This document shows, piece by piece, positions 13,553-42,853 of a DNA stretch of 64,000 nt (positions within the stretch are counted from its first letter, which is position 1; each line of letters starts with the position of its first letter). The DNA is from Candidatus Limosilactobacillus faecipullorum (GTDB lineage: Bacteria > Bacillota > Bacilli > Lactobacillales > Lactobacillaceae). Below the pieces are notes generated by a model, which saw only the letters and a program-made list of their open reading frames with translations, made no database searches and was not told the DNA's origin. The stretch spans positions 1 through 64,000 of the forward strand of contig DWYX01000056.1 of assembly GCA_019118465.1 (NCBI GenBank). The letters run 5' to 3'. Both the position numbers and the translations under genes were made by a program.

Positions 13553-13664
13553 TCATTCCACCACCTAACTAATTTTTGACTTCGTTAATTTTACAGTTTT
13601 GAATCCGGTTATAGCTTATCGGTAACATATGCTAAAAGTAACGATTCTAGGCTACATTGTGCAC

Positions 13665-13780
13665 AATCCAACTTCACAAAGAAATCTCATTCTAAATAAG
13701 AATTCAACCTTGAACCTAGCTAAAGCTAGCTTCCACGGTTGCTTTCTCTTATCATCGTAAGATTTTTGGTGAAGCCTTTT
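13665..13780 (+). repeat. R element copy R1
   Basis: AATCCAACTTCAC...GTGAAGCCTTTT with nested stems AAATCT/AGATTT and AACC...CTAGC/GCTAG...GGTT; abuts the pth stop codon. Confidence 0.7.
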
Positions 13781-20110: not shown

Positions 20111-20138
20111 GAGCCAAAAATCCTGCGATGATAAGAGG
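20111..20138 (-). repeat. R-element-like fragment
   Basis: GAGCCAAAAATCCTGCGATGATAAGAGG resembles the end of the reverse-complemented R1 (GGCTTCACCAAAAATCTTACGATGATAAGAGA). Confidence 0.4.
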
Positions 20139-20155
20139 TTGGGAGAAAACCTACT

Positions 20156-20243
20156 CGACGGCCTGGCAAGGATAAGGAGAATGAAGGTTGATTAGTAAGA
20201 AGAATCGTTCTTTCGTTCGAACTTATCCTCTAAGGCCGTGGTT
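20156..20243 (+). repeat. S element copy S1 (palindromic repeat)
   Basis: ACGGCCTGGCAAGGATAAG...CTTATCCTCTAAGGCCGT; near-identical ends to the inverted copy at 35632-35717. Confidence 0.75.
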
Positions 20244-20349
20244 TGGATCGAATGAAATGAACTTACATCAAGAGTGAGTTTTAAAACTCTTCAGCGACTC
20301 AAAATCATCTCCACCACATTCCCTGACTAATGGCTGGTTCTCCTCATCA

Positions 20350-25866: not shown

Positions 25867-27096
25867 TTATGCATGGGGTGTCTCGGGGAGAGCCTTTTTT
25901 TCACCAATTTGATTCAAGCGAATCGTTAAGTAAATTAAGGCTGCGATTACTAGCAAGGCAATCCCGTAGACTAAGAATGGAGCGGCTAAACCATCCCCTT
26001 TAAGCGGAGCGTTCAGCAAAGTGTTCATCCATTCAGCTAATGTTGGGGAGAAAAAGGCCCCAAAGTTAAACCCGATTAAAACTAATGATGTTACCAAAGG
26101 TTGGCGCTTCGCTGGTGCCAAACCTGGTAAAAGGTTAAAAATCAGCGGCGATACTAGTTGTAATGGGAAACCAATTAATAGCAATCCTGTAACTAGTAAA
26201 CCAAAATTATTCCGGCCAAAGTAGAATAAGAAATTGGCTAAAGCCATTAGTCCAAGGCCAAGATAAACCGTTCCAAACCCAAGCCGTCGATGAATTGCTC
26301 CGTAGAAAATTCCACCCAGCGTAGCCCCAATTAACATCAAGGACAGATAATTAGAAGCACCAGTATAAGCTGCACCTTTTAGGTGGACCGCTAAACTTGC
26401 AAACCGATTTTCCATCCCCACATAATCAATCACTAAGAAGAAAGCGAATAAAATCAACAAGGCAACTCGTGGACTTGTCTTCGTAACTTGATCAGTGGTT
26501 ATAGTTGAACTTTCTACGGCTTGATCTTGACTTGGCCGGTCATTTGGTACCCGTAAGGCAAAGAAGAATAGAACCACAAAGGCTAGTAAGTAAACCAAGA
26601 AAGAAAAGTGCCAGCCACCAATCGTTAACAAAATCCCCGCAATAAACAAGGTTGTTGCTTGCCCAATTTGTTCAGCAGCAGCCCGCCAACCAAGCATTTG
26701 TGCCCGGGTTGGACCTTCGTACCAAACAGAAATTAAAGCGATGGCCTGTGAATTATATAACCCATATCCCGCTCCCAGTAATAACCGAGAAGCTAAAATC
26801 AAGGCATAGCTGTGAAGGTTAAAAAATGGAACAAGCCCCATTACCCCAACTAAGCCCACCCCAGCCATGATCATTTGTTTATCAGACACCTTTAACCATG
26901 TTTGTAAAAGTGGTGATAAAATCACAAAAATCATAACCGCGAAGGATGGCATCGTTGCTAAATACTCAGCTTGCGTTTGACTAACGTTTAAGGCTGCCTT
27001 TAATTGAGGCAAAGCTCCCTGTACCGCATAGGCACTGGTCAGCATAAACGAAACCGATAAGAAGGCTAGCTTCTCAACAATCGAATTCTTCTGCAT
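25867..27096 (-). CDS. MFS transporter, candidate sugar permease
   Basis: About 12 TM helices; directly upstream of gtfA on the same strand. Confidence 0.88.
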   Translation of the reverse strand: MQKNSIVEKLAFLSVSFMLTSAYAVQGALPQLKAALNVSQTQAEYLATMPSFAVMIFVILSPLLQTWLKVSDKQMIMAGVGLVGVMGLVPFFNLHSYALILASRLLLGAGYGLYNSQAIALISVWYEGPTRAQMLGWRAAAEQIGQATTLFIAGILLTIGGWHFSFLVYLLAFVVLFFFALRVPNDRPSQDQAVESSTITTDQVTKTSPRVALLILFAFFLVIDYVGMENRFASLAVHLKGAAYTGASNYLSLMLIGATLGGIFYGAIHRRLGFGTVYLGLGLMALANFLFYFGRNNFGLLVTGLLLIGFPLQLVSPLIFNLLPGLAPAKRQPLVTSLVLIGFNFGAFFSPTLAEWMNTLLNAPLKGDGLAAPFLVYGIALLVIAALIYLTIRLNQIGEKKALPETPHA

Positions 27097-27165
27097 TGCA
27101 ATAGAAACTCCTTTGATATTAAATATTAAACTGTTTGAGCTTTACTTTGGATAAAACTCTTCCTC

Positions 27166-27280
27166 AATCCAGCTTCGTTAGGTAATTCTCCTTGAAATAA
27201 GCTGATCGCCTTGAACCAAGCTACCACTAGCTTCTACGCCGATCTTGCATATCATCGCAGGATTGCCGACGAAACCTTTT
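27166..27280 (+). repeat. R element tandem copy A
   Basis: AATCCAGCTTCGTTAGGTAAT...ATTGCCGACGAAACCTTTT; inner GATCG/CGATC and AAGCT/AGCTT. Confidence 0.7.
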
Positions 27281-27285
27281 CTTCT

Positions 27286-27403
27286 AATCCGGTTCTCCTA
27301 AACGATCTGACACTCTTAATAAGGACTCAGTCTTGAACCCAGCTACGCCGCTTCCTACGACTGATTGTCCTTACTATCGGATCATCTCGAAGAGAGCCTT
27401 TCT
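27286..27403 (+). repeat. R element tandem copy B
   Basis: AATCCGGTTCTC...GAGAGCCTTT; inner AAGGAC/GTCCTT and CAGTC/GACTG. Confidence 0.7.
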
Positions 27404-27407
27404 CTCT

Positions 27408-27520
27408 AATCCAGCTTTGTTTTGGGCACTCCAGATAAGAACACACCTTAAATCTAACCAAGGTTAGCTTTTACGGCCGTTTTGTTCTCATGATCGCCCC
27501 AAACCTGACAAAGCCTTTTT
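27408..27520 (+). repeat. R element tandem copy C
   Basis: AATCCAGCTTTGTTTTGGGC...GCCCCAAACCTGACAAAGCCTTTTT; inner AGAACA/TGTTCT and CTAACC/GGTTAG. Confidence 0.7.
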
Positions 27521-27549: not shown

Positions 27550-27579
27550 ATTATCATGTAAAACGGTTTCTGTCAATCG
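27550..27579 (-). promoter_or_regulatory. Candidate promoter of the MFS-gtfA operon with LacI-type half-site
   Basis: Minus strand TTGACAGAAACCGTTTTACATGATAATCT: TTGACA - 17 nt - TAATCT; spacer holds an AAACCGTTTT near-palindrome. Confidence 0.55.
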
Positions 27580-27687: not shown

Positions 27688-28674
27688 CTAGTTAGCTTCT
27701 CCCTCTTGCTTGAAGCGTTCGTTAAAAAGTGGGCTCACTGGCCGATTTTCGTTAATCCGCTTAATTGCGGAACCGATCAATGGTCCAACGGATACTTGCT
27801 TGATCTTAGCAATTTGCTTTTCTTCCGGAAGCCGAATTGAGTCAGTTACCACCACTTCTTTGATTGGTGAAGCTTCCAACCGTTCAATTGCTGGACCTGA
27901 AAGAACTGCGTGGGTACACGAGGCGTAAACTTCCTTTGCCCCAGCATCAATTAAGGCTTGTGCCCCCTTACTGATCGTTCCGGCAGTGTCAATCATGTCA
28001 TCAATCATGATACATTTCTTACCCTTAACATCCCCAATGATGTTCATAATCTGGGCAACATTTGCCTTTGGCCGCCGCTTATCAATAATGGCAATTGGCG
28101 CCTTTAAAAATTCAGCTAAGGCCCGGGCCCGAACAACCCCACCATGGTCTGGTGAGATAACTACTGCTTCATCAGCAACCCCTTCACGAATGAAGTAATC
28201 AGCTAAGAGCGGTGCCCCCATTAAGTGATCAACAGGGATATCAAAGAACCCTTGAATTTGAGCAGCGTGCAAGTCAAGGGCAACCACCCGGTTTACCCCA
28301 ACATTTTGCAACATATTAGCAACTAGTTTTGCTGTGATTGGTTCGCGAGACCGAGCTTTCCGATCTTGTCGTGCATAGCCATAGTATGGAATTACCACAT
28401 TGATTGTCTTGGCACTTGCCCGCCGCAAAGCATCAACCAAAATCAACAATTCCATCAAGTTATCGTTAACTGGCGCTGACGTCGATTGAATTACGTAAAC
28501 ATTGTCGCCCCGGATACTTTCCTCGATATTAATTTGGATTTCTCCGTCACTAAACCGATCAACAGATAACTTCCCAAGCTCAACTCCAACTTCAGCAGCG
28601 ATTTTTTCTGCTAATGGTCGGTTGGAACTTAAAGCAAAAATTTTGAGCTTTGAATCAAAATAACGTTCTTTCAT
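27688..28674 (-). CDS. prs: Ribose-phosphate pyrophosphokinase
   Basis: [15 protein letters not shown]-like N-terminus, [26 protein letters not shown]; start MKERYFDSK after CGGAGGG. Confidence 0.96.
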
Positions 28675-28749
28675 TAGGCCCTCCGATTTTGAAATACTCC
28701 CGTCATTGTTCATCTCCATGATATTAATAAGTCGGGGAAAAAGCAAGAA

Positions 28750-31090: not shown

Positions 31091-31100
31091 GTTAGAAAAA

Positions 31101-31203
31101 AGCGCTCCACCAGCAATCTTACGATGATAAGCAAAAAGCAACCTTGAAGCTAGCTTTTGGCTAGGTTCAAGATTGCACTCTTATCTAGGGTGTAGCCTCC
31201 CGT
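31101..31203 (-). repeat. R element copy R6, inverted relative to the others
   Basis: Minus strand GCAATCTTGAACCTAGC-CAAAA-GCTAGCTTCAAGGTTGC, ATAAG/CTTAT, CACC/GGTG, ending GGAGCGCTTTTTT. Confidence 0.7.
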
Positions 31204-31252
31204 AAGTAGAGCTAGATTGCGTTTGATGCACCCTAATTTTGCCCATTCTTCA

Positions 31253-35609: not shown

Positions 35610-35631
35610 CGTACCTCCGAATATTACACAG

Positions 35632-35717
35632 AAACCACGGCCTTAGAGGATAAGTTCGAATGAAAGAACAATTCTTGCGAATCAGTCTTCTTCCTCCTTA
35701 TCCTTGCTAGGCCGTCG
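35632..35717 (-). repeat. S element copy S2 (inverted relative to S1)
   Basis: AAACCACGGCCTTAGAGGATAAGTTCGAATGAAAGAAC...CCTTATCCTTGCTAGGCCGTCG. Confidence 0.75.
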
Positions 35718-35755
35718 AGAAATTTTTCTCTCGAGCTCTTTTCGTTATCGCCTCA

Positions 35756-42759: not shown

Positions 42760-42853
42760 AATTTAATACGCTCCTTTGCCATGAATCATTGCCTGAAACA
42801 TAGATTATTTTCAATAACCTAGCCAGGATAACATAGTTTTACCAAAATGGCAA

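Follow-up and report, generated by a model that had tools for sequence, protein, structure and literature searches.

A dispersed hairpin repeat adjoining stop codons in Limosilactobacillus that looks more like a mobile element than a regulatory RNA

Three hairpins in the leader of an MFS transporter gene

Between a ribose-phosphate pyrophosphokinase gene (prs) and an MFS transporter gene of Candidatus Limosilactobacillus faecipullorum stand three head-to-tail elements of ~118 bp (27163-27519), and the question they raise is whether they are a regulator of their neighbour, a non-coding RNA or a repeat that arrived from elsewhere. We examined them within a window of 64,000 nucleotides of contig DWYX01000056.1. 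An initial annotation had three copies starting with AATCC at 27166, 27286 and 27408 and ending in ACCTTT or GCCTTT. These motifs are all present and the copies had been placed rightly, but the unit extends a few nucleotides past the borders given. Its natural orientation is the minus strand, the same as that of the flanking genes, and two more full copies outside the range first described bring the number in the window to five (Table 1).

Table 1. Features of the window
Feature	Position	Strand	Remarks
Copy A	27163-27280	-	A-type; closest relative L004 (70%), at another locus
Copy B	27283-27401	-	B-type; subfamily shared with the single L. alvi copy at the same locus; nearest relative at another locus (69%)
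Copy C	27405-27519	-	C-type; transcribed first; closest relative the L027 copy (66%), downstream of another gene
Copy D	13661-13780	-	directly 3' of the peptidyl-tRNA hydrolase stop codon (TTAA/AAGGC); followed by the tail motif ATGTAGCCTAGAA
Copy E	31100-31221	+	antisense to both neighbouring genes
Remnant of element 5' part	20112-20156	+	E 0.35 alone; apparently interrupted where a member of a second repeat family inserted
MFS transporter gene (MFS_1)	25867-27096	-	downstream of the array
Promoter-like block TTGACA...GATAAT	27550-27576	-	15-nt spacer; upstream of the array; noted by inspection only and absent from the promoter scan list
Terminator-like site	27653-27627		after prs
prs	27688-28746	-	upstream of the array
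L31-Firmicutes ribosomal protein leader	42771-42803	-	only Rfam match in the window

Read from AAAAGG to GGATT, the unit is predicted to fold into one long hairpin of ~120 nt with five stacked helices. Its internal loops (CGATGATAAG opposite CTTATCTAGAG) are conserved while the stems vary, and it often carries a 3' tail, ATGTNGCCKAGAA. The predicted folds contain the stems named in the initial annotation, and the array copies, folded as the plus strand, had z-scores of -3.0, -3.4 and -2.1 against dinucleotide shuffles. Automatic consensus folding of the plus strand returned no structure; the structured model was built on the minus strand from nine similar copies. In an alignment of 44 copies that was itself fitted to this structure, 83.6% of helix cells were paired, compared with at most 48% when the partners were slid by 1-3 columns; two-sided changes were seen in 30 of 36 pairs, and the covariation score was reached by none of 500 shuffles. 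A structure-blind MAFFT alignment of 21 copies gave 82.3% pairing over four helices against at most 45%, again with 0/500 shuffles. The covariation noticed at first sight is thus far above chance.

With the promoter-like block upstream of it, the array would belong to the MFS gene's 5' leader. L. alvi and L. ingluviei both retain block and gene, and their MFS proteins are 90% and 76% identical to the one encoded here, which places this genome in Limosilactobacillus. Here the leader has three elements, in L. alvi it has a single B-like one, and in L. ingluviei it is empty, suggesting successive adjoining insertions into a leader that the genus can spare. Copies A, B and C represent three different subfamilies, each grouping with copies elsewhere and not with one another, so that they are separate insertions, not a tandem duplication. 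The tandem arrangement might also bring to mind a local duplication or a tandem regulator, but the relatives at other loci and the empty leader of L. ingluviei speak against these. Copies B and C end in GGATTAG.

A dispersed family that often begins at stop codons

A sequence-only model yielded ~36 matches in the 1.52-Mb genome (G000) and a further 21 in G004, a close relative whose MFS locus matches that of L. alvi. Another 52 Limosilactobacillus genomes gave no match at the stringency of this model. The family is dispersed over unrelated genes and is missing from their orthologues in relatives. Plasmids and viral contigs searched for the element gave no match, and in Rfam 15 no family matched at gathering or relaxed thresholds, which agrees with the earlier failure to name a known family. 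Nor did the limited set of literature that we searched describe it, and the elements apparently represent a small, folded repeat of non-coding DNA that is new to the record.

We next consider where the copies lie, using a census of element positions that took in ~1.0 Mb of the genome, known loci included. Of the 29 copies whose left end is intact, 16 start no more than 3 nt from a stop codon on the same strand, against 0.7 expected from random intergenic placement (P about 1.5e-18). This adjacency belongs to the left end and to the sense orientation only; the right end is never stop-adjacent. TA precedes the element in 23 of 38 cases. In the clade of this genome the identity of the stop codon shows no significant preference (TAA in 9/11, P = 0.20). 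In several cases, such as NDYN*, TDYEW* and KY*, the orthologues in the element-free genome G046 end at the same codon, indicating that the genes were not truncated by the element.

Most comparable sites hold an element in both G000 and G004, often of a different type, and recent movement between the two genomes was not seen there. Such sites could be either old sites with fast sequence turnover or targets of repeated hits on the same stops; this shared but often differing occupation gives the strongest sign of a function or of a hot spot. At L047, L050, L052 and L053 of G004 and their counterparts in G000, different elements follow the same stop codon, and the flanking genes are ~84-88% identical.

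A second group of Limosilactobacillus species carries a hairpin of the same plan, in some genomes in 60 or more copies and with a maximum of at least 62. It usually begins as TAG/AGTG at stop codons. In many copies this TAG is the gene's own stop, and in 10 of 40 there is no gap at all; the same TAG recurs at gene-free junctions inside arrays (TTTAAA-TAGAGTG), which means that it belongs to the border of the element. Both clades have a 13-nt tail motif that lies at a constant distance, in 12/36 and 12/44 copies where 0.3 are expected in each, although the pattern was picked after both clades had been viewed. The clade models do not detect one another significantly (best E about 0.1, and nothing credible in reverse), and homology of the clades thus rests on the shared plan, position and tail motif. 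We consider common descent likely, though not proven. Among the second-clade copies, L080, L081 and L114 contain the 3' half of the element and its tail as tandem repeats with a ~50-bp period, as well as mosaics in which the 5' part of one subtype is joined to the 3' part of another.

Pairing on the two strands

The initial annotation had offered either a non-coding RNA or a hairpin-processed DNA element, and had taken compensatory change as the mark of selection on structure. If a sense RNA were under selection, A·C pairs should be removed and G·U pairs tolerated. In our helices the G·U:A·C ratio was 118:92 (46:33 in an independent alignment), and both mismatches were depleted to a similar degree relative to column expectations; tRNA stems from this and one related genome, a small and crude control, gave 31:7. 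Such near-equality argues against sense-RNA selection. Mean fold z-scores were -2.8 for sense and -2.6 for antisense (p = 0.43). Covariation alone is therefore no proof of RNA, given that both strands pair equally here, and compensatory change is not supported as evidence for a non-coding RNA; the DNA option was rightly among the two offered.

Of 958 cells in second-clade helices 2-5, 915 are Watson-Crick, 16 G·U and 11 A·C, and changes in helices 2-4 nearly always affect both sides, with hardly any one-sided intermediates; here the sense strand has a slight folding advantage (p = 0.024). We infer that the data fit either founder palindromes kept at the DNA level that then decay, or template switching from arm to arm. 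Retention of structure since the split of G000 and G004 makes for a weak comparison, because many same-site elements differ in subfamily.

A probable mobile repeat and its alternatives

The reading that we favour, with a probability of about 0.62, is that the elements are a lineage-specific, non-autonomous small interspersed palindromic repeat of the BOX/ERIC/MITE-like kind. Its dispersal, the empty sites, the division into subfamilies and the mixed arrays point to mobility, and on the whole it resembles a mobile or parasitic repeat more than an RNA dedicated to regulation. The nearest parallel in plan is with the BOX repeats of Streptococcus pneumoniae (together with RUP and SPRITE), which are likewise small, structured, intergenic, dispersed and confined to few related species, and which have been read as non-autonomous parasites (PMC3049150). 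BOX repeats also supply or adjoin the stops of intact genes, often at the extreme 3' end; in 36 of 58 overlaps with a CDS the repeat provides the stop codon, with no clear sign of a truncated protein (PMC3049150). They differ in that the present element is a single ~120-nt hairpin lacking boxA-boxB(n)-boxC modules, and in that it starts within a few nucleotides of the stop, in sense; this comparison is one of general plan, not of sequence. Like ERIC/IRU and Correia (NEMIS) elements, it is an intergenic foldback of ~100-150 bp, and it often starts after TA, which ERIC, RUP and Correia have at their termini (PMC2229807). Unlike ERIC and Correia, it has no clear terminal inverted repeat beyond the hairpin foot, and the hosts differ. 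As to the terminal inverted repeats of a MITE, the paired foot (helix 1) covaries, and the outermost bases AAAAGG and GGATT are not inverted repeats.

We propose that the DNA hairpin is recognised by a putative enzyme, which places it at targets containing TA, where TA and the first base of the element (A in the clade of this genome, G in the second) would together read TAA or TAG. Stop codons with a permissive gap behind them would then be the commonest tolerated targets. The GGATTAG ends of copies B and C may offer fresh targets, which could build arrays of unrelated subfamilies such as the one at 27163-27519. Covariation would reflect founders that needed intact palindromes, with inserted copies decaying without strand preference. 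A stricter version, in which a putative recombinase would place a folded single strand, oriented in sense, precisely at the TA(A/G) of stop codons throughout the genus, so that the element supplies the new stop, seems unlikely to us; if true, it would describe a hairpin dedicated to a harmless life at gene ends and recognised by structure, not sequence.

The most serious competitor is a functional RNA in the 3'-UTR (here the 5'-UTR). The hairpin behind the stop, transcribed along with the upstream gene, would set the stability or decay of the mRNA 3' end or the transition to the gene that follows, and selection for the RNA structure would maintain it. This reading would account for sense elements directly 3' of stop codons, for gene ends occupied in both G000 and G004 despite differing element sequences, and for conserved loops between variable stems, and there is precedent in ERIC, which can alter mRNA stability in an orientation-dependent way (PMC2229807). 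What makes it doubtful is the strand symmetry, with G·U about equal to A·C and an antisense strand that folds equally well in the first clade (the sense advantage in the second being slight), and the scatter of elements over unrelated genes whose orthologues in relatives lack them. A riboswitch-like tandem RNA governing the MFS gene is hardly credible by comparison: three copies do separate the gene from a conserved promoter-like block, but the same family stands at many unrelated genes, the leaders of L. alvi and L. ingluviei hold one copy and none, Rfam has no match, and neither the leader comparison nor the neighbours of the copies revealed a conserved tie to one regulon. On the mobile-repeat reading, any effect of the elements on this leader would be a side effect.

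Two further explanations concern DNA. Template switching within a quasi-palindrome during replication could copy one arm onto the other and produce covariation without selection on structure. Such a mechanism was put forward for hairpins on the basis of reconstructed histories (PMC8794818), and the two-sided changes in second-clade helices 2-4 would suit it, but founder effects would give a similar picture, and on its own it leaves dispersal, subfamilies and stop adjacency unexplained; we find it quite unlikely as the explanation, though it could coexist with a mobile repeat. An element of REP/BIME type, moved as a single-stranded hairpin by a Y1 (RAYT/IS200-like) transposase, shares with ours the dispersed extragenic palindromes, the arrays and a hairpin foot following TAG or TAA. 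Our unit is about three to five times longer (~120 nt against 20-40 nt), and Y1_Tnp (PF01797) is absent from G001, G014, G044, G050 and G051, most of them among the element-richest genomes, so that a lost or undetected transposase would be needed; this reading was already disfavoured and is very improbable.

The IS630-type DDE_3 transposase (PF13358) was absent in 14 of 14 genomes tested, and the ISL3 transposase (PF01610) from G000, G001 and G044. Among the tested families Y1, IS630 and ISL3 we thus found no mobilising enzyme, none of them tracking the repeats. No clean target-site duplication was seen, and no pair of empty and filled sites resolved one. The non-significant stop-codon test and the occupation of most comparable sites in both G000 and G004 likewise speak against the mobile reading.

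If the elements are a mobile repeat, their kind (BOX/MITE-like) is already known, and what is apparently new is the host, the strict stop-codon junction and the strand-symmetric covariation. The tight link to stop codons offers a testable case of small repeats colonising compact genomes without breaking genes, and insertions may alter transcript ends in Limosilactobacillus, a genus of gut and food bacteria.

Other repeats were seen alongside. A second dispersed family (CTCGACGGCCTGGCAAGGATAAGGAG ... CTTATCCTCTAAGGCCGTGG) occurs in the window at 20119-20259 (+) and 35630-35745 (-), with 19 matches in the examined part of the genome, and seems to have inserted within copies of the first element at position 20119 of the window and near 6351 in L218. 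A third, short repeat, AAGGCCACTAATTTAAAGGTTGAAACGTAGCCGACACAACTTTGAA, has 12 matches (e.g. L237:12278-12321 and L250:4532-4575), some of them near gene ends, and is possibly part of a terminator-like inverted repeat.
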